DNA of 64,000 bases, from positions 22,501-86,500 of the IMG/VR virus record IMGVR_UViG_3300028822_000042; one strand, written 5' to 3'. A program made the position numbers and the translations under genes. Numbering within the stretch: position 1 is the stretch's first letter; every line of letters starts with the position of its first letter. The stretch comes from a virus. The notes beneath the pieces were generated by a model. The model did not search any database and was not told the DNA's origin. It saw only the letters and a list, made by a program, of their open reading frames with translations. Below are positions 15,163 to 64,000 of this stretch, piece by piece.

Positions 15163-15163
15163 T

Positions 15164-18100
15164 ATGTTTGGACAAGATGAACGATCACCTCTATGGGGTT
15201 TAGCTGCTGGCGGAAGTCTTATTGGCGGTGCCGCATATGCTTTTAGTAAAAACAAATCAGCATTTGCTGATGTTCTTAAATCTAATCTAGATGTGGCCTC
15301 TTCAGTGGGGTCTAGAATTGCTGATGCTCCTGGCTTTGTTACAGTTAGAAATATGCCTTCAGCAGTAGGTTCTGTTAGTAGTGAATTGTCTTCACTAGTT
15401 CAGGATCTACCTAAGAGCACAATACGAGACATAGAACAACTTACATACAGATCTATCATGGCAGGCAAAACAGCAACCCATGAAGAAGCATTGTCAGCTT
15501 TGTCTGTAGTTAGAAAACAGGGATCTCCTCTAGAAGCATATGAAGCAGCAGTTGAGAAAGCTGGAGCATTAGGCGGAGACATAGGAGAGATAGAAAGAGG
15601 AATGAAAGGAATTGGAAGTGTTCCTTCAGAATCTATAGTTAGACGTGCAGGAGTTTCTGAGGGAGGATTTGGTTTTGGCTTTCAATATGAGAAATTTGCT
15701 GATCTTAGTGAAGATGCCCAATCCAGATATACAAGACTTAAAAGCAACCTTGAGTCAGCAGCTGGCAGAAAAATAGATATTAGAGTTAAGAACATAAGTG
15801 ATATTATTGACAATGAGGTTGTAACTACTCCTATGGCTACAGCAGAAATTGCAGGAGAGTCATTTAATATTCCACTTGCTGATACAAAATATACTTATGG
15901 AGGCAAAGGATATACTGCTAGATACGCAACTAGAGGGGCCTATACTGCTACTGGCCATAAGATGACTTATTCTCAACTTGCTGAACAGACACTTATAGAT
16001 GCTTTGTCTGGCGCACAATCTCATAGAGAAGTTAAGCAAAATTTACTTCAAGCACATCAAACACTGATAGATCAAATGAACTCTAGAGATTCAGATGCTA
16101 GAGCAGCAGCAGTATGGACTCTTCCTGAGCCTGTTGCTCCTTCTGGATCTAAAGCTAGAACACGTATACTTGCACAAGAGGCAATTGCATCAGGCAAGAT
16201 TACAGAGGAAGAAGTAATTAATCTTTTAGGACATGGCTTCTATGGATACACAAGTCCCTCTGCTGCAGCAAAGGGAACATTAGCTACTCAAAATCTAGCA
16301 ACTGGTCTCTATGGTCCTCTTGGGGCTTTTATGAGTGCAGAGCAGAAACCTACTCAATTCATTAGAGGAGAATGGGGTGTTACAGGAGAAGCTAAAAGAA
16401 GAGCTAAAGCTTTTAAAGGTGCATTCGGACAAGCATACTCTCGTTTAGATAGAAAGATGAAGGGAGAACTATATGACCCTCTAATATATGGTAAAGGAGT
16501 TAATCCCCTATCTGCAGAAGCTTACTCCTCTCCTCAATTACTTACATTTTATGCAAAGCCTGCTGCAAAGAAAGAATATGGTATTGGCTATAAGTCAGGA
16601 GCTCTTAATGAACTTCTTTCAGCAGAAGAAGGAGTTATATCTAAATCTGTTACCGGACAGATGGAACATGAAAGAGTAATTCAGAAGAAGATTGCTCTTG
16701 ATGAAGGTTTTAGAGTTAACAAACAAATCTCAGAACAACTTAAAGATGTACCTCCAGGTTCTGGAGTTTCTCCTGTATTCTTAGGCGAAAATCAGTTTGT
16801 TGGAATAGAGAAAGGCACAGGTAAAGAAATAATAACTAGTAGAGGAGATGCTATTGAAAATGTTGTTGGTGCTGAGATTACTGGGCCTAATGAGGCTAAT
16901 GTTTTTATAAGAGAACGTAGAAGATTGTCAGAAGATGAATATTGGAAGTTCTTCTCAGAAGAGAACAAATTTATGGCTTCTGCTGCTTCTGAAGAGAAGA
17001 TGAGAAAGACTATTAAAGCAGCTGGGGTAGGAGACCTCAGAAAAATAGCTGGTCAGGAAATAGAAGCTGTGTTCTCCGGTAAGCTTGTTGGCAGAAACAA
17101 AATGGCACTTCTAAACCAGCAGATAGAAGCAGCAAGTATGTTTCTTGGTAGAAAGATAGATAGAGGAACAATTGCTTCTCCTGCGGCGCAAGAATTCTTA
17201 GCTGACCCTATAAAAGCTCTCAATGTAAAAAGTCTTATGGCTTCAAGTGCAGCAGATGCTGATTTTCAAATACAGAAGAACTTGGTTGGCTTAACAAGAA
17301 AGTGGGGCTTCTCTGGATTTGAAACACAGTTAACATTTGGTCTTACTGATCTTGATGTAGCAGCTAAGCTTGAGAAACAGACAAACTTTAGAGGCTTTTC
17401 TAGATTAGTTGAGAGAGCACCTGGTGTAGTCGGTCTTGGCAAAATGAAGCTTGGCGATAGAGCAGCTGAAGGTGGAGCTGGAAGAATAGGATCATTTGAA
17501 ACTACAGGTTTTAGAGCCTTGGCGATGAAAGGCGAAACAGGAGAAAGCTTTGCTGCTGAACTAAGAAATAGACTTCTTGGTAAAGGTGATATTACAGAAT
17601 CAGACAGAATGTTTGCCTCTGTTATTGGAGAACAAGGCTTCTTTGATAAGTTTAAACGTAGAGGTTTAGAAAATTTAACAGATATAGATCCTGAAGAACT
17701 GTTTGTTCCTGAAGGTAGAGAAGTTAGTCTTGGTCGGAGGATGAAAGAACTAGGAGGATCCTCTTCTTTATATGTCCCAGGTCTTGAGACATCTCCTGAT
17801 ATAATGGCTCCGTCTATCGTTAAAGGTGAAAGAGTACAGTCTCCAGCCGCTAAAAGCATAATGTCTTTCCAAGGCTCTCTTAGTAAACATGTCGCCGGTA
17901 AAATAGGAGATGAAGAACTTGAGGCTGCAGCTGCCACTCTCAGAACTAATCTAGCTAGAGTCTCAGAGCAGCAAGCATTTGCTAAGAGTAAAGTACTTGG
18001 CTCTAGAGTTCTTACAGGCATCAGAGGAAACTTTGCCAAGGATAGAGATACTTTTAGAATATCTAAATCTGCAGCAGAAGGAATGTTTGATGAGCTTATT

Positions 18101-49300: not shown

Positions 49301-50746
49301 ATGTCTACACAATGGAACTGGTCATGGGTCGATTCTAGAGAAGATACTAGTAAGGCTTCTAATTCTATCGATCAGAGCGGTGGGACTCTTTATTCTTATC
49401 GTGCCGCGACAAGAGGACAACTAAGTGCCTCTGAGCTTAAAGCTTCTTTGGATTCAGTCTCTACAAATATCAATCATCAGTGGAGGCTATGGACTAATTA
49501 CATTAGGCCAATCCTGGATTCTTTTCCTGCTGGCAGTAGAGATGAAAGATGGCGTCCTGGTCGTGGACTGTCTTCAAAGATAGATGCTCTTAACTTTGGT
49601 GTTCAAGGCACAACACTATTTGTGTTCAATGATGCTGATGCCACTAAAGCATCTGGTAGATACTGGGACTCTGATTATGAGAGACCTAAAACTATTGCTG
49701 AAGCCATAGAGGATCTTTGGGGAGCAGTTAATGATATTGATACAGATACTACATCTGTTTCCTCTACATCAGTTGATTTAGAAGCACTATGGCTTGCTGT
49801 TGGTCATCATTACCAAGACTCTTCACTTTCTAGTGCATCAACAAGTCTCGATTCTAGAACTAGTCAGCTTGAGTCAAATATTAATCAGCTCGTAGATGAC
49901 CTCTATGGAGCTAGTGATGGTTTTGCTCCCTGGACGTTTGGGGTCCCCCTCTCTCATAGTGTAGCTAGGAATATAGACTATCTTCTTAAGCTTCATGGTA
50001 TCAGCGGAGGATGGCAGAACGACCCATCAACAGTAAATCATAGCTCTGTCTCTGTAGGTGCCCACACACACACATATACTGATGTTGCCCCTATGCCTTC
50101 GAGTACTTTAACTCAAGGCAGAACAGCTCCATATACATCTCTCTATAATGATATCCTAAGAATACGTTGGGAGATTTCTAGAACAAGAGGTGGAGCTAAT
50201 TGGTACTCAGATGCTACTGATCCAGTTGATGCTTCGTATGTCACTTTACAGAAGCACGTTAATTATTCTGGTTCTGGCTCTGTAGTAAATACAAATCCAC
50301 ATGGCATCGATTACACTAACACTGGTGCAAATACGATGCTAAGCAACCTAGCCAGATACTCAGGCATGTCAAGTTATACTTCTGGTATTGAGATGCCTAC
50401 ATATAGCTCAACAAACTATATTACTCAAAGTACTTCTCTTGAAACAGCAATTGGTGCTCTTGATGCAGCTCTTGCTTCCTCTTTGGGTTCTGTTGTCATC
50501 CGCAGAGACTATTCATACGACAGGTCATACCTTAGTGAGACGACTAGAGCTAATAACCCTATTACTGTAAATCATAATGTTGGTAGAAAACCATTAGTCC
50601 AAGTACATGATGTATCTCCAGATCAGATGGGATACTTTGGACAATACGAATCTCCAGCTAGTGAAGTCAATATTGTTCATGTAGATGAAGACTCATTCGA
50701 AATCTGGACGCCAGCTGAAAAGATTGAAGTCATTGCCTTGTTCTAG
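49301..50746 (+). CDS. Tail fibre protein with HTHT site
   Basis: A 481-residue elongated, Ser/Thr-rich fibre-type protein. It has helical heptad-like stretches (LESNINQLVDDLYG; LETAIGALDAALASSLG) that suit trimer formation. An H-T-H-T motif lies near 254-258, the kind of HxH that binds metal in T4 fibre needles. The C-terminal domain (NPITVNHNVGRKPLVQVHD, then NIVHVDEDSFEIWTPAEK) resembles a small beta fold at the ends of phage fibres. A GGAGG site precedes the ATG. Role as a fibre segment is fairly likely; metal binding is inference. Confidence 0.55.
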   Translation: MSTQWNWSWVDSREDTSKASNSIDQSGGTLYSYRAATRGQLSASELKASLDSVSTNINHQWRLWTNYIRPILDSFPAGSRDERWRPGRGLSSKIDALNFGVQGTTLFVFNDADATKASGRYWDSDYERPKTIAEAIEDLWGAVNDIDTDTTSVSSTSVDLEALWLAVGHHYQDSSLSSASTSLDSRTSQLESNINQLVDDLYGASDGFAPWTFGVPLSHSVARNIDYLLKLHGISGGWQNDPSTVNHSSVSVGAHTHTYTDVAPMPSSTLTQGRTAPYTSLYNDILRIRWEISRTRGGANWYSDATDPVDASYVTLQKHVNYSGSGSVVNTNPHGIDYTNTGANTMLSNLARYSGMSSYTSGIEMPTYSSTNYITQSTSLETAIGALDAALASSLGSVVIRRDYSYDRSYLSETTRANNPITVNHNVGRKPLVQVHDVSPDQMGYFGQYESPASEVNIVHVDEDSFEIWTPAEKIEVIALF

Positions 50747-50757
50747 GAGGACCTAAT

Positions 50758-53154
50758 ATGGCACGTGGAGTAAAACTAGATAGAGCCGACTGGACTTTAG
50801 TTCAATATGCTTCTGGTGCACCAGATTCTAATACTAAAGGCAATATATATATTAACAGCAATAATGGCACTCTATATACGAGGAAGAATGAAGAGGCTTC
50901 TTGGTCTGCTATATCAGGAAGTGGAGCATCAGACCATGGTGCTTTAAGCGGTCTTGGAGATGATGACCACTCTCAATATGCTTTCCTTGCTGGTCGTGTA
51001 GGAGGACAAACTCTTCGTGGTGGCACTGCCTCTGGTAATGATCTTACCCTCGTCTCTACTTCTAATGCCACTAAGGGATATGTCTTTTTAGGTGCGGAAA
51101 CAAATGCCTATTTTGAAGATATAGGCAAATTAAAGATTACTATCCCAGATGGTGGCAATTCGAACTGTGCTGAGTTCCAACAAGATGACGTTACTAATGG
51201 TGGCCCAGCTCTTGTTGTCGGTAATGATTACAGCACTCTGTCTGCATGGGAGAATACAGATGGTTGGGCTATAATGCTCAACGGTACCAATACGGATGGA
51301 GACATAATTGGTAGCGAAGGTGACATCTATATATTTGGAACTACTGCAAATTTAAAAGGTTGGAGTAATTCAGGCGCTGCTGAAACTTTTGTAGAGTGTG
51401 ATTCTGGAACAAGCACTTCTGATGTATATGTGTATTCCTCTGGTGCTGGCAATACAACAGTTAGAATACAATCTAGTTCTGATAGTGGTTCTTCTGATTT
51501 AACTCTTAAGGCTGCAGATGGTAGCTCTGCCACTAGTAGAGCTATAACTGTTGGGTCAGATAATGGAACAGATGATACTAAAGAAAGAGTCCGTATCTAT
51601 TCTGGCGGCGGGAAGTATGGATCTGCTGCAGATAAAGTAAACTCATGGACGTCATATACACCACTGCAACTATTAGGGTCGGAACTTAGATTATCAGACG
51701 ACAATAATTCAGGTTCAACATGGACTCAAACATATGTTGTTCTTTCAGATGCAACAGCAGAATGGACCACATATAAGTCCAATTTTGGAGAAGTTTCATT
51801 ATTTAATGCTATTAATCAGTCATATTCTGTAATATCAGCACTGGATGATTTGTCAGATGTTTCTACTGCTGGAGCAACAGAAGATCAGGTTCTAGCCTAT
51901 AATAGTTCTTCTGGCACTTGGACGCCAGCTACTCTTAGTGGTGGTGGTGGAGTAACTCTTGATGGCGCGTATGACTATGGTGGTGGTGGTACAGGTAGGT
52001 CTATAACTGCTGACTCTGGTGCAGTCGCTATAACAGTACCTGATGCTAGTAATAATGCTGCCTTGTCAGTAACTCAGAATGATACAACCAATGATCCTAG
52101 CTGTATCAGCATAACTAATAATGCTGCAGGATATGGTCTCTACATTACTCATGATGATTCTAGTGCTACAGGTATATTTTTAACTTCATCTAGCTCTACA
52201 TCGCAGGATATCTATTCTGACAAACAACTCACAGTAGGTTCTTCTTCTCCTTTAGATTCAAACGATAATTCTTTTGGTGGTCTTATATTAGAAAATCTTC
52301 CTACATCAGGAATGAGCTTTATAGAGATTGACAGTACATCAGTTGATAACGCAGCGATGGTGGCGATTAAAGCAGATGGTAGTGCTGGTTCAGATAATGG
52401 TCTTGTAGAAATTGAAGCTATAGGAGAAGACAGTACAAGTACTACTCATATTAAGCTTGATGTTGATAACAATGCTGGTACAGGAGATGCCTATATTCGA
52501 CTTGATGTTGATGGTAATGGAACCAACTCTATAGAAATAGGAACTTCGTTTGGTTCTGTGAATGAGATTCAGTTCTACGATGAAGGGAATAGCGGCTCTA
52601 CTTGGACTCAATCTTATGTCCTTTTGACTGATGGCTCTAATGCAGAATGGAATAACTTTGAGACTAATTTTGGTGAGGTCTCAATATTTAATGCCTTAAA
52701 CCAGTTAGTAGGAGGAGCTACAGCTCTTAATGACCTTACTGATGTCTCTACTGCTGGCGCTACACAAGACCAAGTTATTGCTTACAATGAATCGTCTGGT
52801 ACATGGTCTCCAGCTACAGTAAGTGGTTCTGGTGGATGGACCACTTCCGAAAATCTAGATGTAGATACTGGTACTGAGAATATAGATACCTTTGATCCTG
52901 ATGGAGATGGAGCTGTCTTTTGGTACTATTCTGTACAGAATGGAGCTAATCATAGAGGTGGCACCATCACAGCTTGCTGGGATGATTCAGCAGGCACAGT
53001 AGAATACAATGATGTCTCTACTTCTGATATTGGCGACACATCTCCTCTTACTCTTTCCGTCGATATGAGTGGTGGTTCTGGAACTGTAAGACTTAGAGCT
53101 ACTGCCACAACGGATAACTGGATAGTAAAAGTAGCTAGAGCTGAAATCCTCTAG
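50758..53154 (+). CDS. Tail fibre with internal duplication
   Basis: A 798-residue fibre rich in Gly, Ser, Asp and Thr. Seen directly: a block with GSTWTQTYVVLSD, FGEVSLFNAINQ, LDDLSDVSTAGATEDQVLAY and SGTWTPAT recurs about 294 residues later as GSTWTQSYVLLTD, FGEVSIFNALNQ, LNDLTDVSTAGATQDQVIAY and SGTWSPAT. The DLSDV...QVLAYN...W unit is a common fibre repeat. The C-terminal 100 residues, starting WTTSENLDVDTGTENIDTF, look like a separate tip domain. A strong AGGAGG site precedes the ATG. Confidence 0.65.
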   Translation: MARGVKLDRADWTLVQYASGAPDSNTKGNIYINSNNGTLYTRKNEEASWSAISGSGASDHGALSGLGDDDHSQYAFLAGRVGGQTLRGGTASGNDLTLVSTSNATKGYVFLGAETNAYFEDIGKLKITIPDGGNSNCAEFQQDDVTNGGPALVVGNDYSTLSAWENTDGWAIMLNGTNTDGDIIGSEGDIYIFGTTANLKGWSNSGAAETFVECDSGTSTSDVYVYSSGAGNTTVRIQSSSDSGSSDLTLKAADGSSATSRAITVGSDNGTDDTKERVRIYSGGGKYGSAADKVNSWTSYTPLQLLGSELRLSDDNNSGSTWTQTYVVLSDATAEWTTYKSNFGEVSLFNAINQSYSVISALDDLSDVSTAGATEDQVLAYNSSSGTWTPATLSGGGGVTLDGAYDYGGGGTGRSITADSGAVAITVPDASNNAALSVTQNDTTNDPSCISITNNAAGYGLYITHDDSSATGIFLTSSSSTSQDIYSDKQLTVGSSSPLDSNDNSFGGLILENLPTSGMSFIEIDSTSVDNAAMVAIKADGSAGSDNGLVEIEAIGEDSTSTTHIKLDVDNNAGTGDAYIRLDVDGNGTNSIEIGTSFGSVNEIQFYDEGNSGSTWTQSYVLLTDGSNAEWNNFETNFGEVSIFNALNQLVGGATALNDLTDVSTAGATQDQVIAYNESSGTWSPATVSGSGGWTTSENLDVDTGTENIDTFDPDGDGAVFWYYSVQNGANHRGGTITACWDDSAGTVEYNDVSTSDIGDTSPLTLSVDMSGGSGTVRLRATATTDNWIVKVARAEIL
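51690..51936 (+). repeat. Fibre repeat block, copy 1
   Basis: Coding repeat inside the 50758 fibre gene, similar at protein level to 52572-52826 (GSTWTQ, NFGEVS, VSTAGAT and QVLAYN segments in the same order). The two are about 880 bases apart. DNA identity is only moderate, so the duplication is old. Confidence 0.7.
52572..52826 (+). repeat. Fibre repeat block, copy 2
   Basis: Second copy of the block at 51690-51936, within the same fibre gene and just before the C-terminal tip domain. Confidence 0.7.
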
Positions 53155-53165
53155 GAGGTAATACT

Positions 53166-56100
53166 ATGGCAGGCGAATTTCGAGGTAAATTTATTCCTAA
53201 ACCAGATCTAGGTATTGGAGATTCTGCTTTAAGCTCTTTAAGTACTGGTACATATAATATAGCTATGGGTGCTAGTTCTCTTGCTGCTATATCTACTCAA
53301 GATAGGAATGTTGGTTTAGGTTATGAAGCAGGTAATGCCTGTGAGGCTTCAGATAATATCTTTGTTGGTCACCAGGCAGGTAAGAGTTCTACAAGTGCTA
53401 CTAGAACTATAGCAATTGGCTATCAAGCATTTGGTAGTACAGGAAGTAAAACTGGTAATGATAATATACATATTGGATACTCTGCTGGTAAACTTGTTAC
53501 TTCTGGCGCCAATAATATCACTATAGGAAGTTATGCTTTAGATGCGAACACTACAGGTGAAGATAATATTGCTATTGGCGTTAATGCTCTTGGTGATATG
53601 GATACCAGGGATTGTAATGTAGCAATTGGCAATGAAGCAGGTGTCAACTTAACGACCAATGGCTTTGGTGCAAATGTTCTTATAGGATATAAAGCTTATG
53701 GAAGTTCTAACACCAAAAGTGGCTATTACAATGTTGTTGTTGGTGCTTATTCTAATCTTTATGCCACCAGCGGCAAACATAATGTATATTTAGGTTACAA
53801 ATCTGCATTTTTTGCTAGTTCTGGAGTTGAGAATGTATTAACTGGATATAAGGCAGGATATTATTTTTCAACAGCAGAATATTCTACTGGTGTAGGCTGT
53901 TATTCTTTACATGCAGATAGTGGCGGTTATAATTCTGGCAATTATAATACAGCTGTTGGTCACAGCTCTGGATATACCATAACAACAGGAATTAATAATG
54001 TAGCTATTGGAGCCAGTGCTCTCTATACAGAGACTACTAATGACAACAATACTGCTGTTGGTTATCAATCTCTATATAGCCAAGATACAGCATCAGATAA
54101 TACAGCTGTTGGATATCAGGCTGGTTATAACATCTCTACAGGTGTTGGAGTCGTTGCTGCTGGCTATCAAGCACTTGGCGTTGCCAATGCTAAGACATGC
54201 GACTATGCGATAGCTATTGGCTATCAGGCACTAGGAAATGGCAGTACTTCTGGCTCTGACAATACAGCTATAGGACGCGAGGCTCTATATGCTCCTTCTA
54301 GTGGCGCTGGAAATATAGCTGTTGGTTACAAGTCTGGATATTCAAACACAACAGCAGATTACAATATAGCTATAGGTTATGAGGCTCTCTATACAAACGA
54401 TACTGAGGATAACAATATAGCTATTGGTTATCATGCCCTCTATACATTTGGAGGAGCATCCGAGGCAGGCAACATAAACATTGCTATTGGTGAGAATGCT
54501 GCTGATGCAGTAACAAGCGGTTTCTCTAATGTTGCTATAGGTCAAAATGCTTTGGGTGCAGGAACTACTGCTTCTGATAATATTGCGATTGGCAAAGGTT
54601 CTCTTGCTGCTATTACTACCTCTTATGCCTGTATAGCTATTGGTGTTGGAGCATTAGAAAGTGCTAATGGTGTTGAGAATATTGCTATAGGTGAAAATGC
54701 TGGTAATACTCTTGATAGTCCAGGCAACATAATAATAGGTGCATATGCAGCACAGACAGCTACTTCTTGTATTCGTACAATAGCTATAGGATACCAGTCA
54801 TACGGTGGCACAGGCACTAAGACAGGTAATGACAATATTGCTATTGGTCATGAAGCTATAGGGAATGGTGCGACTACTGGCGGTTCAAATATAGGAATCG
54901 GCTATCACTCTCTTAATGCGACTACTAGCGGAGCAAGTAATCTAGCTATTGGAATTAGCGTAGCCACAAATCTAACAACAGCTGATTACACTATTGCTAT
55001 AGGCTATGAAGCCATGAGTAGTGGCGTTACTACTGGTGACTATAATATTGCCATAGGATATCAAGCTGGATATGCTACAACATCAGGAGCATATACAGTA
55101 GCCATAGGGTATAGGGCTCTCAAAAATAATGACATAGACAGTGATGCTATAGCTATTGGTAGAGATGCTCTTCTTAGTTATGATAGATCAACAATAGATG
55201 GTACTTCAAACATATCGATTGGTCCTTACTCTTTAGATGCTCTTACAACTGGCAGTAATAACGTTGCTATGGGTGGGGCTGCTTTAGGTGCTTCTGTTAC
55301 AGATAACTACAATACAGCCATAGGTGGTGTTGCATTACAAGATTGTAATGGCGGTGAATATAATACGGCTATTGGATATCAGGCTGCTGCTGATCTTACT
55401 ACTGGCGACTATAATGTTGCTGTTGGTTATCAGGCAATGGCTACTAATGTAGTTACAGGTGATTACAATATAGCCATTGGCTATCACTCTATAAGCAACG
55501 GAGCAACATCAGGAGATGAAAATATTGGTATTGGTCATGGCCCCCTATACTCTTTAACATCAGGTATTGGCAATATAGGGATTGGTTATCAAGCTGCTTA
55601 TGCTGTTAATTCTGGAGACCATAACATAGCTATAGGGTATCAGGCATTAAATAGCAATGATGTAGATGATTACAACATAGCCATAGGGTATCAATCTCTA
55701 AAATCTTTTGACCCTATTGGTGTATCTACTTATTCAAATATAGCTATAGGAGATGAGTCCTTAGATGCTCTTACTGATGCTGATGGCAATATAGCAATTG
55801 GCGCACATGCATTATCTACTTCAACAACAGACTCATACAATACAGCAGTAGGTGGTTATGCTTTACTTCTCTGCAATGGAGGAGAGGGGAATACAGCTAT
55901 TGGATTTGAAGCAGCAAGAGGATTAACAACAGGAGATGGCAATGTATCTATAGGTTATGAAGCAGCATACTCAAGTGATGTTGCTAATGGAAATGTAGCG
56001 ATAGGATATCAGGCACTTAAAGCCTATGATCCAAGTAATACAGAGCCAAGTCCTAATACAGCGATAGGCTACAAGTCAATGACAGCAGAGACTACTGGAG

Positions 56101-56753
56101 CTGGCAATGTTGCTGTTGGACACGAATCTCTTATTAGTGCTAATGGCGCAAATGGTAGTGTTGTAATTGGATCCGACTCTGGTCAGTCAATAACAACTGG
56201 TGACTTTAACATCATTGTTGGCTTTAGCTCTGATGTAAAATTGTCCTCAGATCAGAACTCTATTGTTATTGGTTATGGTGAAACAGGAGCAGGATCTAAT
56301 AACTGTACTATAGGTAATAGTAGCACTACAACATACAACATGTATGCTGCTTCATGGACAAGTATATCTGATGCTAGACTTAAAGATAGTATAGAAGACT
56401 CTAATCTTGGACTAAACTTCATACAGAAAATACGTCCAGTAAAATACAGATTTAGAAATAGGAGAGATGAACGTAGAGGAGTTGATCTCACATTCAAGAG
56501 ACCTCACTATGGATTTATAGCTCAAGAGATAAAAGAAGTTATTGATGAGATGGATGTTGATTTCGGCGGATACATAGATCCTAAAGTCAATGGTGGAATA
56601 GATAGACTTGGCCTTGGCTACACAGAGTTTATAGCTCCAGCCATTAAAGCTATACAGGAGCAACAGGATATGATTCGAGACATGAAGAATCAGATGAAAG
56701 CTCTCAAGAGAGAAATAGCTATCCTAAAGAACAAGAAGGATGGAGGTAAATAA
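53166..56753 (+). CDS. Giant fibre: YadA-head-like repeats plus S74 chaperone
   Basis: An 1195-residue protein. From about 20 to 1040 it is built of dozens of short repeats centred on G-N-x-x-A-I-G-(Y/x)-x-A, for example NIAIGYQAL and NVAIGYQALK. This is the left-handed beta-roll repeat of trimeric autotransporter heads such as YadA. The C-terminal 130 residues are an S74 chaperone: S1068-DARLKDSIED, IRPVKYRFRNRRDERRG, HYGFIAQEIKEVIDEM, IAPAIKAIQEQQDMIRDMKN, with the expected Ser and Lys for self-cleavage. Expected role is a trimeric receptor-binding fibre whose tip is released from its chaperone after folding. A strong AGGAGG site precedes the ATG. Confidence 0.8.
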   Translation: MAGEFRGKFIPKPDLGIGDSALSSLSTGTYNIAMGASSLAAISTQDRNVGLGYEAGNACEASDNIFVGHQAGKSSTSATRTIAIGYQAFGSTGSKTGNDNIHIGYSAGKLVTSGANNITIGSYALDANTTGEDNIAIGVNALGDMDTRDCNVAIGNEAGVNLTTNGFGANVLIGYKAYGSSNTKSGYYNVVVGAYSNLYATSGKHNVYLGYKSAFFASSGVENVLTGYKAGYYFSTAEYSTGVGCYSLHADSGGYNSGNYNTAVGHSSGYTITTGINNVAIGASALYTETTNDNNTAVGYQSLYSQDTASDNTAVGYQAGYNISTGVGVVAAGYQALGVANAKTCDYAIAIGYQALGNGSTSGSDNTAIGREALYAPSSGAGNIAVGYKSGYSNTTADYNIAIGYEALYTNDTEDNNIAIGYHALYTFGGASEAGNINIAIGENAADAVTSGFSNVAIGQNALGAGTTASDNIAIGKGSLAAITTSYACIAIGVGALESANGVENIAIGENAGNTLDSPGNIIIGAYAAQTATSCIRTIAIGYQSYGGTGTKTGNDNIAIGHEAIGNGATTGGSNIGIGYHSLNATTSGASNLAIGISVATNLTTADYTIAIGYEAMSSGVTTGDYNIAIGYQAGYATTSGAYTVAIGYRALKNNDIDSDAIAIGRDALLSYDRSTIDGTSNISIGPYSLDALTTGSNNVAMGGAALGASVTDNYNTAIGGVALQDCNGGEYNTAIGYQAAADLTTGDYNVAVGYQAMATNVVTGDYNIAIGYHSISNGATSGDENIGIGHGPLYSLTSGIGNIGIGYQAAYAVNSGDHNIAIGYQALNSNDVDDYNIAIGYQSLKSFDPIGVSTYSNIAIGDESLDALTDADGNIAIGAHALSTSTTDSYNTAVGGYALLLCNGGEGNTAIGFEAARGLTTGDGNVSIGYEAAYSSDVANGNVAIGYQALKAYDPSNTEPSPNTAIGYKSMTAETTGAGNVAVGHESLISANGANGSVVIGSDSGQSITTGDFNIIVGFSSDVKLSSDQNSIVIGYGETGAGSNNCTIGNSSTTTYNMYAASWTSISDARLKDSIEDSNLGLNFIQKIRPVKYRFRNRRDERRGVDLTFKRPHYGFIAQEIKEVIDEMDVDFGGYIDPKVNGGIDRLGLGYTEFIAPAIKAIQEQQDMIRDMKNQMKALKREIAILKNKKDGGK

Positions 56754-57169
56754 TGTCAGTAAGAATACATGGAGTTGTTGGCGGGCCCAGGCAGAAGATC
56801 AGTAGACCTAGAACTAAGGTTGATAGAACAAATTATCTTGATATGCCTGAAAAGTTTCAGGAAGCAGAAGCAATTATTGTATCTAGCAAAGATAATACAT
56901 TAGAGTTCTCAAAACTAGAAGAAGACAAACCAGAACCTGTTTCTAAAACTGTTGAGACTGTAGATAAGCCTAAGAAGAAAGAACCTGCCATGAAGCAGTC
57001 TAGATATAAAGCTGCAAGCAAGACCAATAAAGAGTCAAAAGCAGTTGAAGAATCTCAAACAACCAGCAATCAAGAAACTGAAGAAGATAAAGAAGAAAAT
57101 TTAGTTAGTCTTGAGACTCAAGACAAGATTGACGAATGGCTATTGAAGCTTTCTCACCAAGGAGATTAG
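56753..57169 (+). CDS. Basic/acidic low-complexity protein, unknown
   Basis: A 138-residue protein, last gene of the rightward module. The first 25 residues are basic (VRIHGVVGGPRQKISRPRTK). The remainder is rich in Lys, Glu, Ser and Thr and likely disordered, ending in a short helix (LETQDKIDEWLLKLSHQ). A GGAGG site precedes the ATG, whose first base overlaps the preceding stop. Its last 30 bases are also the 3' end of the opposite-strand gene. Possible fibre-assembly or virion linker protein. Confidence 0.5.
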   Translation: MSVRIHGVVGGPRQKISRPRTKVDRTNYLDMPEKFQEAEAIIVSSKDNTLEFSKLEEDKPEPVSKTVETVDKPKKKEPAMKQSRYKAASKTNKESKAVEESQTTSNQETEEDKEENLVSLETQDKIDEWLLKLSHQGD

Positions 57170-57363: not shown

Positions 57364-58461
57364 TTATAGTTTAAGTAGAGCCTCAACTACAGATAGTTGA
57401 TGTTCATCAGTTATGCCTATGCTAGATGGTAGACATACCACTGACTTGTAGGCATTGTCTGCTTCTATTTTACCAAAGTAAAGTGAACCTTTAAAAGCTA
57501 GTTGCTTATGATTTGGTTTAAATAGTGGTCGTATTTGAATGCCACTGTTCTCCATAACTTTTATAAGATGAGAGATTTCTGTTGATGTGGCGCGATTGGT
57601 GTATTTGTTAAGTCTTACTGCCGATAGCCATCTATTAGAATCTCCAAGACCATCAATCATAGTCATTTTGTCTGATGCTTCTAAAGATTCTTTGTAGTTG
57701 TTCCAGATTGAGGTTTTCTTGTTTTTAAAGTTTTCGATGTTCTCTATCTGAGACAATGCCAGTGCAGCATTCATGTTGCCCATACCCATATTATAGCCAG
57801 GCTCATGGTGAATATACATCGTCTGGTTGTCTTTTGCCTGTAGTGCTAAATATTTTACTCTTTCAGCTATATACTTGTCAGCTATTAACATTCCTCCACC
57901 ACCAGCGGTGATCATTTTATTAAAGCTGAAAGAGAAGATGCCTACATCTCCGAAGGTGCCTGCGTGTCTGTTGTTTAGATAACTTCCTAATGCTTGGGCT
58001 GCATCCTCAACTACTTTGATTGTGTTCTTCGTGGCTATCTTCATTATTTCGTCCATATTGCACATGTGCCCTAGCATGTGAACAGGAACTATCGCTTTAA
58101 CATTAACTGAAGATACAGCTAATTCCAGAGCAGATATATCCATACATAAAGACGAATCACAATCTACAAATACTGGCCTTGCGCCTGTCTGTACAACAGC
58201 ATTTACTGTTGCCACAAAAGTCATTGTCGGCACCACAACGTAGTCATCTGGTCCTATCCCTAGTGTCTTTAGAGCTAAATATATAGCACTCGTTCCACTA
58301 TTGAGAGCTACTGCTTTCTTGTTGTGACCAACTATGTTCTCTACTTCTTGCTCTAAATCTCTAACATAGTTACCAGCATACGAGATCCATCCTGAATCAA
58401 GACAATCCTTCACATACTTGTATCCATTCTCTGTAATGCATGGCTCTAGTAGCGGTATCAT
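57364..58461 (-). CDS. DegT/DnrJ/EryC1-family sugar aminotransferase
   Basis: A 365-residue PLP enzyme that aminates a nucleotide-linked keto sugar. Family marks are IPLLEPCITENGYKYVKDCL, then SGTSA at 55-59, ED at 152-153 with AAQALGS, and SFSFNKMITAGGGG, where K182 is the expected PLP lysine. The N-terminus and length resemble perosamine synthase (RfbE) and LegC-type enzymes. With the GDP-mannose dehydratase in the same operon, conversion of GDP-4-keto-6-deoxymannose to GDP-perosamine is the simplest guess, but LegC-like substrates are not excluded. It sits two bases after the sulfotransferase gene end, in one operon. Confidence 0.85.
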   Translation of the reverse strand: MIPLLEPCITENGYKYVKDCLDSGWISYAGNYVRDLEQEVENIVGHNKKAVALNSGTSAIYLALKTLGIGPDDYVVVPTMTFVATVNAVVQTGARPVFVDCDSSLCMDISALELAVSSVNVKAIVPVHMLGHMCNMDEIMKIATKNTIKVVEDAAQALGSYLNNRHAGTFGDVGIFSFSFNKMITAGGGGMLIADKYIAERVKYLALQAKDNQTMYIHHEPGYNMGMGNMNAALALSQIENIENFKNKKTSIWNNYKESLEASDKMTMIDGLGDSNRWLSAVRLNKYTNRATSTEISHLIKVMENSGIQIRPLFKPNHKQLAFKGSLYFGKIEADNAYKSVVCLPSSIGITDEHQLSVVEALLKL

Positions 58462-58462
58462 A

Positions 58463-59203
58463 TTATCTCCACAGGTTGTTTATCTTTAGCGTGTCTTCTA
58501 GTGCTCTGTTAAATGGAGCATACATCCTATCAATGTCTCTTCTATAAGCATTCTTAGTTAAATCATGTTTCTTCTTCCTTGAGTGCGCGAACTCAATATC
58601 ACAGTAATCTAGATTTAAGAACTCAAGTAGATTTGCCCATTCTTCTTCAGGATTCTCAAACATCTCTTCTGAGATAATGATATGAATATTGTTCTTATTA
58701 AACAGAGCCCATAGTGCAGTGAGTTGCCTGATATAGAATCCTCTATCAATCAGATGGTAATCCTTAGGATGGGCCCCCATAAACAAGTCCATCACTGAAT
58801 GATACCTATCTGTCCAGTCTACTTCATTTGCTGAGATGTGATTAAAGTGAGAATATAATCTGTCTGTAGGGTTCCTCAGCATAACGATGATCTTACAGTC
58901 TGGTATTGTCTCAGCAATGTGTATCAGTGCCTGAGTCCTGTACAGATACATTGGTGTTGCCTCACCTGTAATATATCCGTCAGGACACTTAGGGAAGCAG
59001 CTTTGATACCAGTCCCAACCTCTGTTGTAGTGCTTGTCAAAGAATCGTATCTCTTTGACTCCTAGTGGGACCTCAGAATCTGCTTCTGTCTGTACACCAT
59101 TTCCTAGTGAAGGCAATATCTGTGGATGCTTCACAAGATTGTCGTACATTGATGTGGTTCCACACTTTGTCTCTCCTACAATAAGAAAGTTGGGCAATGG
59201 CAT
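58463..59203 (-). CDS. PAPS-dependent carbohydrate sulfotransferase
   Basis: A 246-residue cytosolic sulfotransferase of the NDST/heparan type. The 5'-phosphosulfate loop is GETKCGTTS at 10-18, with KEIRFFDKHYNRGWDWYQSCF after it, GEATPMYLY near 80-88, and the 3'-phosphate site LRNPTDRLYSHF at 109-120 (R110, S118). Those are the features that bind PAPS. The acceptor is probably a sugar on the virion or host surface. The gene overlaps the upstream stop by one base. No signal peptide or membrane segment is visible. Phage-borne carbohydrate sulfotransferases are uncommon. Confidence 0.85.
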   Translation of the reverse strand: MPLPNFLIVGETKCGTTSMYDNLVKHPQILPSLGNGVQTEADSEVPLGVKEIRFFDKHYNRGWDWYQSCFPKCPDGYITGEATPMYLYRTQALIHIAETIPDCKIIVMLRNPTDRLYSHFNHISANEVDWTDRYHSVMDLFMGAHPKDYHLIDRGFYIRQLTALWALFNKNNIHIIISEEMFENPEEEWANLLEFLNLDYCDIEFAHSRKKKHDLTKNAYRRDIDRMYAPFNRALEDTLKINNLWR

Positions 59204-60693
59204 TAGTTGCTTCCTTCTTCAAATCCTAGTCTAATTAATTTGTCTCTGTCTTTCGTCGCTATGGCAAATCCATGACAGTCCTTGATTTCCCAAGTCTCAA
59301 TTGGTTTGTTCCTTATATCTTTCTCTCTCTTTAAGTCTTTTGTCACTCTAAAACCTATATGGTATCCTGCTTTCTCTAGCAGTTTTATTGCCTCCATTCT
59401 AGGCTTAAACATATAGTCACTTCTTCCAAGGAAGGCTATAGAAATATCTGGAGAATGCTTCTTCATCATCCTACGTGCACCATGTATGGCATTTAGTTCT
59501 GCACCATTAATAGTTAGGTCAATTAGGTCTACTCTCTCTAAGTCTTTTGCTACTGTGTTCAATGTAGTTGTTTTGAGTACTTTTGTAGGCTTGTCTTTTG
59601 CAGATCCAACTCTGCCAGATGTTGCATTCTGAAGACTTATAAACTCTAACTTAGTCTTATTGTTCCATATTACTTTGTTTATTATTGATATGTTGTCAAT
59701 TTTGTTGTCTTGTGTATATTTTTCTATTGTTTTAGTGTTTCTAGAATCAGCTTCTACAACAACAACATGTTTTGCTGCCTTTAAGAATCTTGTTATAGCT
59801 GATAGATTCTTAAGACATAAGTCTCCTCTTGCCCCGCAGCATATTACAGTGCTTTCTTGATCTATAAAGTCAACTGGTATTAGTAGATCTATGTTTTTGT
59901 AATATAGATCGTTATACCTAGATATCTTGTTTCTTTCTACTGGTATGTATTTGAAAAACATTTTCTTCTCCCTTGAATTCAGAGACAGTCTTGTTTCTTG
60001 TATGTCTCTTTCTATTGTTTTAGATATCTCATTAACCCATAGTCTTATAGAGTCTTTTATTTTTAGATGCCAACTATCACCTAAGTTCATATATTGTTTT
60101 TTTATAAGACCAGTTGTTTTATCTAACAAAATGTGATTTATAGATGCAACCTTAAATCCATTTATGTTAGCCATGTCTTTTAGTTTTCTTTCAAATAATA
60201 GACATAGGTCTGTTCTCTCTTTGTGGGTTGCTTTTATTTCATTTCTTCTTTCTCTCCCTTGTATGTGGCCGTGTGACCCTCTGTAGGTTCCTTCTTTGTA
60301 AGCTTCAATAATAGGAATTATTGGAGATAGAAGTATTATCTTGTCTGTATATTTTCTTGCATTTATAGCAAGGTTCTCTAGTTGTTTTATAGCGAAGTCT
60401 ACTTCTGTTTCTTTTGTGGTCCCGTTTCTATTCATACGAGACCACAGTGCATATGCACAGTCTACCTCTCCAAGTTGTATTATGAAATAGTCTATGTCTT
60501 CTTTAGTCTCTCTGAGTTTCTTTAAGAAAATGTTTAAATTCTCTTGTTTTGCTAGTCCTTGTGCTGTTTTTGATGTTGCCCATGTATTCTCTACAACTGT
60601 AAATGTGTTGTTTAATATTAACTTTCTATATCCTGGTCTCCAGATATTGGAGTGAGAATCTCCAACAATGATAACTTTCTTTAATCCTGTCAT
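59203..60693 (-). CDS. SGNH hydrolase-like / FkbM methyltransferase-like fusion
   Basis: A 496-residue two-domain protein. Residues 1-220 look like an SGNH/GDSL esterase: VGDSH (S13 as nucleophile), LGEVD at 74-78, and D206-SWH209, which fit an acyl-transfer or deacetylation enzyme acting on sugars. Residues about 280-490 look like an FkbM-type methyltransferase: VICCGARGDLCLKNL, VVVEAD at 311-316, and LIDLTINGAELNAIHGA. In typical family members this last motif reads IDVEGAE; here Asp and Glu are replaced by Thr and Asn, so the catalytic state is uncertain. It overlaps both neighbours by 1-4 bases, consistent with coupled translation. Confidence 0.7.
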   Translation of the reverse strand: MTGLKKVIIVGDSHSNIWRPGYRKLILNNTFTVVENTWATSKTAQGLAKQENLNIFLKKLRETKEDIDYFIIQLGEVDCAYALWSRMNRNGTTKETEVDFAIKQLENLAINARKYTDKIILLSPIIPIIEAYKEGTYRGSHGHIQGRERRNEIKATHKERTDLCLLFERKLKDMANINGFKVASINHILLDKTTGLIKKQYMNLGDSWHLKIKDSIRLWVNEISKTIERDIQETRLSLNSREKKMFFKYIPVERNKISRYNDLYYKNIDLLIPVDFIDQESTVICCGARGDLCLKNLSAITRFLKAAKHVVVVEADSRNTKTIEKYTQDNKIDNISIINKVIWNNKTKLEFISLQNATSGRVGSAKDKPTKVLKTTTLNTVAKDLERVDLIDLTINGAELNAIHGARRMMKKHSPDISIAFLGRSDYMFKPRMEAIKLLEKAGYHIGFRVTKDLKREKDIRNKPIETWEIKDCHGFAIATKDRDKLIRLGFEEGSN

Positions 60694-61562
60694 GACCTTG
60701 TTACCTTCTTAAAGAAGTTAATCCCATCAGAGAATGCTTTGTCTTCTGTTTGTGTCTTTGCATCTACTGGGAGGATCTCCTTGTGCCAGAAGTAACTGTT
60801 TTTTCTTCTCCCCATAAATTCTTTGTACGCGTCTGGCCCAACAAACATTGCTATTGGTATCTTCTTCTCCCATGCTATACAACAATAGGCAGACCATGTT
60901 CCAAAGAAGAAGTTTGCCTTCTCTGTGAGTTTTGCTGCTAGTCTTGGTGTGGTCTTATTTACTAAGTTAAAGACATTAGGCGATATGTTAGTAGTAAAGT
61001 CCTCTTTTACGTCAACTGCAGGTATAGACTGCTTTCGTTTGTTGCGCCTAAATGACCCACCAACAACTACAATGTTGCCATCAGTATGTTCTCTTATACC
61101 TCTAATTAATCTTGTATACCTTTGAGGTTTAATAGGAATTCTCTGTTTCTCTCCGGCAAATGGGTGGATCAATATTATGCCGTTCTTAGATATCTCATTG
61201 TAAGTATCTTGTTCTTCTGGAGACAGTTGCATTGTAGGATCTTCTATTTCATGTCTGCTCTCATATACGAATGCATCACCTACAAATCTTGCTCCTATAT
61301 TTTCTGCTATCCGTTTGTAGTTTGGGTGATTACCATTCCATCCTACCCTTACTGGCTCTAGATAATCAAAGTACTTAAACAATCCAAATGAATGTGAGTT
61401 GTGGCAGCATACTAACAGGTATATCTTATAGTCATTCGACATGGCCTTCAGCTTGCTGAACCACCCATTCTTTCTGTATATCGCAATAAATATGTCTCCA
61501 AGTCCAAGTTGTGCACGAGGATGAAGAGCCACAGCGATTTTCTTCTTATTTGTGTTCTCCAC
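60690..61562 (-). CDS. GT-B/GT9-like glycosyltransferase-related protein (A)
   Basis: A 290-residue protein resembling heptosyltransferase-like (GT9) folds. Seen: GLGDIFIAIYRKNG near 20-33; LIHPFAGEKQR at 131-141; NIVVVGGS at 163-170; and NISPNVFNLVNKTTPRLAAKL at 192-212. The IHPFAGE and VFNLVNK segments recur in the 62195-63073 protein. In classical GT9 enzymes the first glycine-rich loop and the central HPG segment bind the nucleotide-sugar and acceptor. Specific donor unknown. ATGA overlap links it to the fusion gene downstream. Confidence 0.6.
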   Translation of the reverse strand: MENTNKKKIAVALHPRAQLGLGDIFIAIYRKNGWFSKLKAMSNDYKIYLLVCCHNSHSFGLFKYFDYLEPVRVGWNGNHPNYKRIAENIGARFVGDAFVYESRHEIEDPTMQLSPEEQDTYNEISKNGIILIHPFAGEKQRIPIKPQRYTRLIRGIREHTDGNIVVVGGSFRRNKRKQSIPAVDVKEDFTTNISPNVFNLVNKTTPRLAAKLTEKANFFFGTWSAYCCIAWEKKIPIAMFVGPDAYKEFMGRRKNSYFWHKEILPVDAKTQTEDKAFSDGINFFKKVTRS

Positions 61563-61563
61563 T

Positions 61564-62202
61564 TTACTTCCTAATTACGAAACAGATATTTGCCCTTCTC
61601 TTATTTGTCTCTTCGTCTTTCACTTCCATCCATCTATCAAGCCTCTTATCTGTTTGTGCAAATATCTTCTCGTCTACTAGAGTAAAACCCTTTTGTAGGT
61701 CATCCACCATCTGTCTTGAGTATCTTATTAAGTTGTTGTTAATGGTACTGTTGTGTCTTTTGTATGGAAGTGTGCATATCATTATGCCATTGTCTTTAAC
61801 AAACGACATGCAATGCCTAAATGTCCACAGTTGAGCCTTCCTCTTAGATCCCCACTTCTTCCAGTTTTCTTTCTGTCTATATCCTGGTAATCCTATATGT
61901 TCTAATGTTGACATTAAGATCACATTATCAAATTTACCAAGTCTTCTGCTCTTTTGCTTTCGTATGTCCCCAGTTAGTTGTGATATATGATCTAACTCTT
62001 CAGCCCCTTTAAACTCTGTACCTAGAGGATCGATTAGCGTGTATTTCTCTCCTCTTCTTAATATAGCCCACTTTAATAAGCTTTTGTTAGCTCCTATTTC
62101 TAGTATGCTTCCATCTTCTATATTGTTCAGTACATAAGGTACTTCAAAAGACCTTGGGCCTCTATATGTGCTTATTGAAGGAAAATCCCAATGGTTAGAC
62201 AT
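61564..62202 (-). CDS. Class I SAM-dependent methyltransferase
   Basis: A 212-residue protein. Motif I is SILEIGANKSLL (E35-G37), the acidic residue ending strand two is D58 in LIDPLG, and the motif IV region is FDNVILMSTLEHIGLPGY. A post-motif strand MICTLPYKRHN follows. Substrate is unknown; the operon suggests a sugar or sugar-linked group. Two closely spaced genes on either side imply one transcript. Confidence 0.75.
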   Translation of the reverse strand: MSNHWDFPSISTYRGPRSFEVPYVLNNIEDGSILEIGANKSLLKWAILRRGEKYTLIDPLGTEFKGAEELDHISQLTGDIRKQKSRRLGKFDNVILMSTLEHIGLPGYRQKENWKKWGSKRKAQLWTFRHCMSFVKDNGIMICTLPYKRHNSTINNNLIRYSRQMVDDLQKGFTLVDEKIFAQTDKRLDRWMEVKDEETNKRRANICFVIRK

Positions 62203-63073
62203 TTCTGTTCCTCTCTATTATCTCTTTCGTAGTGTCTACGATCTGATGCATAGCTTCTTTCTTCTTTATTACAGGAATAAGACTAATATTGTCTTCAGTT
62301 AAGAAGTTTTTATTAACTCTATTATGCTTTGTCATCCAAGAGTGCTTTGGAAGCATTATTACTAGTGGTCTGTGTCCTTGAGTTAAGAAGCATGCAAGTG
62401 AAGAATGGTTTGCGACAAGACAACTAGACTTCATTATAAGACCACACGCGACTCTTATGTTTATTTTGTTTACTAAGTTAAAAATTCCATCAGATGATAT
62501 GTTTATCTTCTCTTCGTTCTTTATCTCTTTTCCTTTTATCTTTTCTCTCTTTATGTTGCTTGCTCCTAGGACTACAATATTTACTCCTAGCTTTTTCCTT
62601 AATCTACTTATCAGATTTATGTATTCTTCTTCTTTGAAGACTATTCTTCCTGGTTCTCCAGCAAATGGATGAACTGTTATAAACTCACCCTCTCTTCTTA
62701 TGAACTCTACAAATTCTTCTTCTTCTGGTCTCATGTAGACTTTATCTGGTATTACTTTTTCTATGTTGTTCTCAATGGCATAGTCAGATAGCTTTATAAA
62801 ACCAGGCCCTGCCTCTTCTTTCTCTTTCTTAAATACTTTCTTATTAGGATCTACCCAGTCCATTACATGAAGTTCATCAATGTCTGGCTCAAATTTAAAG
62901 TATTCTCTAACTGCTTCCTTACATGCTGAGTGTGATATGACTTTCACGTAGCAGTCTGGATGTTTTATCTTTATTGCTTTTAGATAGCTAAAGTCTAGGT
63001 GCCTCCAGTGGCCACCAAAGTATTCATGAAAGTGATCTCCTAGCCCACCAACAGCATGTATATAGAATTTCAT
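62195..63073 (-). CDS. GT-B/GT9-like glycosyltransferase-related protein (B)
   Basis: A 292-residue paralogue of the 60690-61562 protein. Shared elements are the N-terminal GGLGDHFHEYFGG loop (9-21), VHPFAGEPGR at 134-143, NIVVLGASN at 165-173, and NISSDGIFNLVNKINIR at 191-207. The rest is more divergent. It overlaps the methyltransferase gene by eight bases and the upstream small gene by four (ATGA). A role in transferring or building an unusual sugar is inference. Confidence 0.6.
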   Translation of the reverse strand: MKFYIHAVGGLGDHFHEYFGGHWRHLDFSYLKAIKIKHPDCYVKVISHSACKEAVREYFKFEPDIDELHVMDWVDPNKKVFKKEKEEAGPGFIKLSDYAIENNIEKVIPDKVYMRPEEEEFVEFIRREGEFITVHPFAGEPGRIVFKEEEYINLISRLRKKLGVNIVVLGASNIKREKIKGKEIKNEEKINISSDGIFNLVNKINIRVACGLIMKSSCLVANHSSLACFLTQGHRPLVIMLPKHSWMTKHNRVNKNFLTEDNISLIPVIKKKEAMHQIVDTTKEIIERNRNV

Positions 63074-63279: not shown

Positions 63280-63539
63280 TTTGATCCTCCGACATAGTTT
63301 ATCTTAGGGTCTGGGTAGCCTGACTTAAGAGATATATTGATGCTATCTCTTGTCTTTGCTCGTTGTGAATTGAGGAGACGGATCTTCATGAAGATATCCA
63401 CTCTCTCCTCTGTAGGCATGTCTTTGATTAGGTTGCCTTCAAAGTCTTTTATCTTTGTGGCTTCATGCCATAGCTCAATATGAGTCTCTATCAGTTCATT
63501 TATGTCTTTTCCCACAGTATTCATGCATGTCATGGTCAA
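63276..63539 (-). CDS. Small LWH-motif protein (A)
   Basis: An 87-residue helical protein with [21 protein letters not shown], a loop, then [19 protein letters not shown]. The ELI...LWH and N-x-Q-R-x-x-x-x-x-S-I-N features are shared with the next gene, so the two are likely duplicates. The start is uncertain: the first ATG lies 44 bases inside the dehydratase gene, and further ATG codons 2 and 5 codons later are equally possible. Confidence 0.5.
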
Positions 63540-64000
63540 CCATCTTGTTTACGAGTTCATTGAACATAGTTTTCGATTCCCAGCCAAGTATTCTCTTTGC
63601 CTTCATGGGGTTGCCTAGTAAGGTCTGTACCTCTGTAGGTCTAAAATACTGAGGATTAACATCTATTCTTACAATACCATTCTGATCTATGCCCTTACGC
63701 TTTTCATCCTTGCCTTCAAAGGTCAAGAACATACCTGCTCTTGCAAAGGCCAACTTACAGAACTCTTCTACTGAATGGTTTTCACCAGTGGCAATAACAA
63801 GATCATGTGGTTTGTTCTGCTGGAGCATCATAAACATTGCTTCCACGTAGTCAGGGGCATATCCCCAGTCTCTGAGAGCAGATAGATTTCCAAGTGATAA
63901 TTTTTTCTGCTTGCCGGCCTTGATCTTGGCGACAGACATGGTTATCTTCCTCGTAACGAAGTTCTCTCCTCTCCTCTCCGATTCGTGATTGAAAAGTATT
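63496..64000 (-). CDS. gmd: GDP-mannose 4,6-dehydratase, C-terminal part (cut by window edge)
   Basis: The frame runs through the right edge. Upstream of the first internal ATG it encodes [19 protein letters not shown], a hallmark of GDP-mannose 4,6-dehydratases (usual HESPRRGE, here SE for SP). Then come [28 protein letters not shown]-type [14 protein letters not shown], and [23 protein letters not shown], all characteristic of the C-terminal half. The true start and the catalytic Tyr-x-x-x-Lys lie outside. It makes GDP-4-keto-6-deoxymannose, precursor for fucose, perosamine or rhamnose sugars. Its last 44 bases overlap the next gene. Confidence 0.93.

Follow-up and report, generated by a model that had tools for sequence, protein, structure and literature searches.

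A sulfotransferase of the heparan 3-O-/N-sulfotransferase fold branch in the glycan cassette of an uncultured contractile-tail phage

Why would a phage encode a carbohydrate sulfotransferase (ST), and which glycan would it sulfate? The question was raised by one gene in a 64,000-nucleotide stretch of viral DNA (the window), which is a portion of an 86.5 kb IMG/VR record. A longer copy of this record exists (IMGVR_UViG_3300000374_000001, 109.9 kb, 99.95% identical across the shared length). Judged by its predicted proteins, which include a major head protein and a tail sheath as well as DNA polymerase III alpha, a primase-helicase and Thy1- and UDG-type proteins, the source contig is that of a contractile-tail phage. 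Isolated phages are only remotely related to it (about 31% for the sheath and about 36% for the polymerase). A typical Bacteroidota host is made less likely by the strong Shine-Dalgarno usage (83% vs. 20% in the control). At L012:10641-13709, an intein interrupts the gene of a probable terminase large subunit, at its Walker A motif.

The original prediction placed a carbohydrate ST at 58463-59203. The coordinates proved correct, with the gene on the minus strand: on the plus strand this interval contains many stops and no open frame, while the minus strand holds a complete frame of 246 residues, from an ATG at 59203 to a stop at 58465-58463. Searches with Pfam profiles matched the protein to PF00685 (Sulfotransfer_1, 65.3 bits against a cutoff of 22) and PF13469 (Sulfotransfer_3, 52.5 bits against a cutoff of 27). 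As a single-sequence query against the PDB it matched heparan 3-O-sulfotransferases (3-OST-1 and 3-OST-3) at an E-value of about 4e-14, and the family profile matched 3-OST-3 at 2.4e-46, with an alignment reaching the C-terminal tryptophan. These Pfam and PDB matches are far above chance. NCBIfam profiles gave no match to the ST, and PHROGs returned a weak 'Galactose-3-O-sulfotransferase' match (E 1e-4). An AlphaFold model (pLDDT 91, pTM 0.90), for which the input alignment had 41 rows, was compared with known structures using Foldseek. The top PDB structures were heparan 3-OST and NDST (TM about 0.76, E about 1e-13), and ranks 1-21 were occupied by 3-OST/NDST chains and one bacterial ST, whereas SULT and tyrosyl-protein sulfotransferases reached a TM of about 0.5 or less. 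On this predicted structure, the protein is a member of the heparan 3-O-/N-sulfotransferase (3-OST/NDST) fold branch. Profiles, PDB matches and fold thus agree with the prediction of a PAPS-type carbohydrate ST on a phage contig. The features of the locus are collected in Table 1.

Table 1. Features of the ST locus and its neighbourhood, with positions in the window unless a contig handle is given
Feature	Position	Strand	Evidence
PAPS-type carbohydrate sulfotransferase, 246 aa, 3-OST/NDST fold branch	58463..59203	-	PF00685/PF13469, PDB profile, AlphaFold/Foldseek, phage orthologues
5'-PSB (PAPS phosphosulfate-binding) loop GETKCGTTS, residues 10-18	59150..59176	-	Sequence, conservation
3'-PB (3'-phosphate-binding) motif LRNPTDRLYSHF, residues 109-120	58844..58879	-	Conservation in 41 sequences
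Glu51, presumed catalytic base	59051..59053	-	Opposite the 3-OST Glu in AEPHFFD (profile alignment to 3-OST-3)
DegT/DnrJ/EryC1 sugar aminotransferase, ST partner gene	57364..58461	-	PF01041, 304 bits; PDB PglE-like and perosamine synthetase relatives
SGNH-like domain (by eye) and FkbM methyltransferase domain	59203..60693	-	PF05050, TIGR01444
GT9-like glycosyltransferase	60690..61562	-	Resembles other GT9-like cassette proteins; no Pfam match of its own
Putative SAM methyltransferase	61564..62202	-	By eye; homologues in L105 and L147; no Pfam match
GT9-like (heptosyltransferase-like) glycosyltransferase	62195..63073	-	TIGR02195, E 1.6e-5, below cutoff
GDP-mannose 4,6-dehydratase, C-terminal part, truncated at window end	63496..63999	-	PF16363; TIGR01472, 522.7 bits, above cutoff
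Convergent tail-fibre/appendage-type genes, possible glycan acceptors	49301..57169	+	PF13884 in 53166-56753; conserved neighbourhood
HTGTxF...RDPLLS P-loop proteins	L108:6956-7804, L147:15610-16419, L149:14502-15335, L150:12852-13697 and 14421-15236		Motifs

Both PAPS sites that the original prediction had called intact, GETKCGTTS and LRNPTDRLYSHF, are so by conservation. The extended loop GETKCGTTSMY is identical in the window ST, in the phage contig L105 and in the Bacteroidia contig L027, and K13, G15, T16 and S18 are conserved among bacterial homologues. In the second motif, R110, P112, R115 and S118 are unchanged in 41 of 41 aligned sequences, so that the pair GETKCGTTS and LRNPTDRLYS keeps its key positions throughout. 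Glu51 is likewise invariant in the 41 sequences. Its presumed role is borrowed from the Glu of AEPHFFD in 3-OST, which we take to be the catalytic base.

Searches that included a scan with a 4-row ST alignment found orthologues in three other uncultured phages, L105 (52% identity), L108 (42%) and L147 (38%), in every case within a glycan cassette; the L147 copy lies near a contig end and lacks the C-terminal Trp. In a maximum-likelihood tree from which L147, found later, was left out and whose bootstrap had not fully settled, the window ST, L105, L108 and L027 formed one clade with support 100/99. Close homologues also occur in two further Bacteroidota genomes. Because the clade comprises phages and Bacteroidota, an animal origin of the gene is rejected: the nearest cellular relatives are in Bacteroidota surface-polysaccharide loci, followed by cyanobacterial TPR-sulfotransferases. 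Differences by codon position among the orthologues fit purifying selection, though saturation is too high for them to count as evidence. One Bacteroidota homologue, L139:7101-7478, has a frame of only 125 aa and is possibly a degraded copy.

The gene is embedded in an operon that is convergent to the tail-fibre genes and shares the orientation of those for replication. It encodes a 661-aa double GT9 glycosyltransferase, other GT9-like proteins, a GDP-mannose 4,6-dehydratase (GMD), a putative methyltransferase, an SGNH-FkbM protein, the ST and a DegT aminotransferase. All six clade loci (phages, and Bacteroidota with the flank present) have DegT beside the ST or separated from it by a single gene, which in L108 encodes a hexapeptide-repeat-like acetyltransferase, recognised by eye. 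The remaining fetched ST loci, including 51 with flanks of at least 2.5 kb in both directions, yielded only two with a DegT gene. Since the six loci are not independent and the DegT-ST order in the phages is the reverse of that in Bacteroidota, these arrangements point to an association and not to proof of an inherited shared pair. For a GDP-perosamine pathway, GMD is present and the family of DegT is certain, with a substrate specificity that has no above-cutoff NCBIfam match (best TIGR04181, 346 against 420). The full GMD gene, at L016:6308-8533 on the minus strand, is split by an intein with homing-endonuclease similarity just ahead of the STSE motif. An intein-like insert is found at another site (NHE|C...N|SPRRGEN) in the GMD gene at L143:12859-14828, the L105 gene is uninterrupted, and no GMD was seen in the L108 slot.

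As originally proposed, the locus reads naturally as one for a sulfated glycan of the virion or of the host, because a carbohydrate-branch ST with both cofactor motifs is part of a phage glycan-building cassette. The alternative of a non-carbohydrate acceptor for the ST, such as a small molecule, a modified nucleotide or a tyrosine in a protein, draws on the fact that sulfotransferase folds are common to several substrate classes, and on a weakly similar protein of Vibrio phage VA-RY-3 whose gene lies between those for thymidylate synthase and DNA polymerase. It is hard to reconcile with the sugar sulfotransferases being the closest folds, at a TM of about 0.76 against about 0.5 or less for the tyrosyl-protein and SULT enzymes, and with every identified partner gene being a glycan gene, and we consider it very unlikely. 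The ST is probably a PAPS-dependent enzyme of the 3-OST/NDST branch that sulfates carbohydrates in the cytoplasm, as part of the phage glycan cassette.

From the gene, its fold and motifs, the operon and their conservation we infer an activity, substrates, an order of steps, residue roles and a target. GMD would make GDP-4-keto-6-deoxymannose, and DegT would add an amino group to a keto-sugar, with a GDP-perosamine-like 4-amino-4,6-dideoxyhexose as the probable product. GT9-type glycosyltransferases would move sugars onto an acceptor, and the methyltransferases and the ST would decorate the product, so that a deoxy-amino-sugar glycan would most likely be built in the host cytoplasm and sulfated. 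The ST would take sulfate from PAPS made by the host and place it on an amino or hydroxyl group of this glycan; Glu51 is the presumed general base, and Lys13 would assist the PAP leaving group. No APS kinase was found in the five phage records searched, and a phage-encoded PAPS supply was rejected for them on this ground; PAPS should therefore be supplied by the host.

How constant is an ST at this position? With the double GT9 gene as query, ten contigs of related phages were retrieved, counting that of the window's phage itself; six of them have a slot that is readable as far as the ST or the fibres. Of these six, L105 and the window's phage have the 3-OST/NDST-type ST, and L108 and L147 have it together with a second P-loop protein carrying HTGTxF and RDPLLS motifs. 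L149 has an HTGTxF/RDPLLS protein and, at the fibre end of the slot, a PF13469 protein, and L150 has two HTGTxF/RDPLLS proteins. This second family is thus present in four phages, of which L149 and L150 are without the 3-OST/NDST-type ST. It has essentially no Pfam match. In Foldseek comparisons, the matches of its model (pLDDT 80) at E below 1e-3 were all sulfotransferases, at a modest TM of about 0.4-0.5. The fold comparison supports a place in the ST superfamily, and these proteins probably represent a new phage ST-like family. At L145:8773-9918 a TnpB-like ORF, recognised by eye, is inserted directly upstream of the double GT9 gene, and the ThyX-like protein at L150:6004-8814 has, also by eye, apparently two intein-like inserts.

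The variable slot, and the two large relatives (L149 and L150) that lack this ST in it, could mean that the gene is a transient, non-functional passenger from a host. Such an origin sits poorly with its retention in four diverged phages with recognisable cofactor motifs, with the supported clade (100/99) that three of the four phage STs form with a Bacteroidota homologue, and with the other ST-like gene found in the slot of phages without this one; we consider it very unlikely. That the cassette is common to several related uncultured viruses and the ST is apparently intact suggests a sulfated glycan on the particles or on the host surface. A stronger version, in which this uncultured contractile-tail lineage has a dedicated sulfoglycan module, retains some ST while other genes turn over (3-OST/NDST-type, HTGTxF...RDPLLS or both in six of six slots) and coats its virions with sulfated glycans, is conceivable but doubtful.

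Which of the two surfaces carries the glycan? Tentatively, we favour the phage's own virion proteins as slightly more likely than the host envelope, at a confidence that stays short of even. Fibre genes are adjacent, no flippase, polymerase or ligase was identified in the cassette, and no strongly hydrophobic segment was found in the proteins scanned (maximum mean KD 1.48 over 19 residues). A distant phage also points to the virion: in the unrelated 21 kb phage contig L107, the major and minor capsid genes flank an ST gene and a glycosyltransferase gene (L107:7454-10714). Alternatively, the same chemistry could alter the LPS core or another envelope glycan of the host during infection, for example so that progeny do not adsorb again to debris or so that competing phages are shut out. 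The likeness of the GT9 enzymes to LPS heptosyltransferases, the orientation of the cassette with the replication rather than the structural genes, and the surface-polysaccharide loci of the cellular ST relatives would all fit a modified host, and we regard this as plausible without favouring it, given that no membrane or export genes were identified, that the cassette adjoins fibre genes and that no lysogeny genes were identified in a search that was not systematic. Among the convergent genes, 53166-56753 encodes a 1195-aa protein that has an S74 chaperone and numerous repeats of the 'NIAIGY' type, which call to mind the head repeats of trimeric autotransporters. A general tie between the cassette and this repeat fibre was rejected, as the motif was counted in the window's phage alone of three scanned. 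If virions were sulfated, their surface would carry more negative charge, with possible effects on adsorption and recognition. Mycobacteriophages are already reported to have glycosylated virions (PMC11256854, citing Freeman et al. 2023).

With which known systems can the phage ST be compared? Heparan 3-OST-1/3/5 and the ST domain of NDST share its fold, a full-length profile match, the PAPS motifs and the position of the Glu. At about 20-22% identity, without a Golgi membrane anchor and in a phage setting without heparan, the phage enzyme may be said to work like them, a claim that does not extend to a heparan substrate. The DegT-linked STs of Bacteroidota (L027, L138, L139) share the GETKCGTTS motif and an adjacent DegT, with L027 in the same clade and 40-41% identity to the window ST for two full-length members. 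Unlike the phage genes, they have the reverse gene order and belong to polysaccharide loci of cells, where genes for a flippase and a nucleotidyltransferase are also found. Cyanobacterial TPR-sulfotransferases share motifs and about 30% identity over the ST domain, but in annotated examples this domain is C-terminal to a TPR-type region, and they form separate tree branches.

Finally, the gene is less novel for a phage than the original prediction implied. One paper, whose authors describe the function of phage STs as unclear, reports them from OM43-type viral genomes and from cyanophage S-SRM01 (PMC10580990), and phage STs are previously reported auxiliary genes (PMC8290583). Like the window ST, those of S-SRM01, S-SCSM1, P-SSM7 and ACG-2014f are PAPS-type STs annotated in tailed phages. 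Annotated phage STs in a viral structure library belong to another fold branch, close similarity to the cyanophage group was not found, and the three with models (S-SCSM1, P-SSM7, ACG-2014f) have a TM of only 0.34-0.52 to the window ST. Kinship with STs of isolated phages was rejected: tblastn gave no match at 1e-5 in 50,697 INPHARED phage records, and at a relaxed E-value a partial match of 26% in VA-RY-3. Because phage STs have been reported already and the modelled cyanophage STs are distant, the window ST belongs to a kind of gene already known from phages, but it comes from a different branch and has a defined cassette around it. Here the context of a phage ST can be interpreted: its glycan cassette is conserved, an aminotransferase is its partner and candidate acceptors are encoded next to it.
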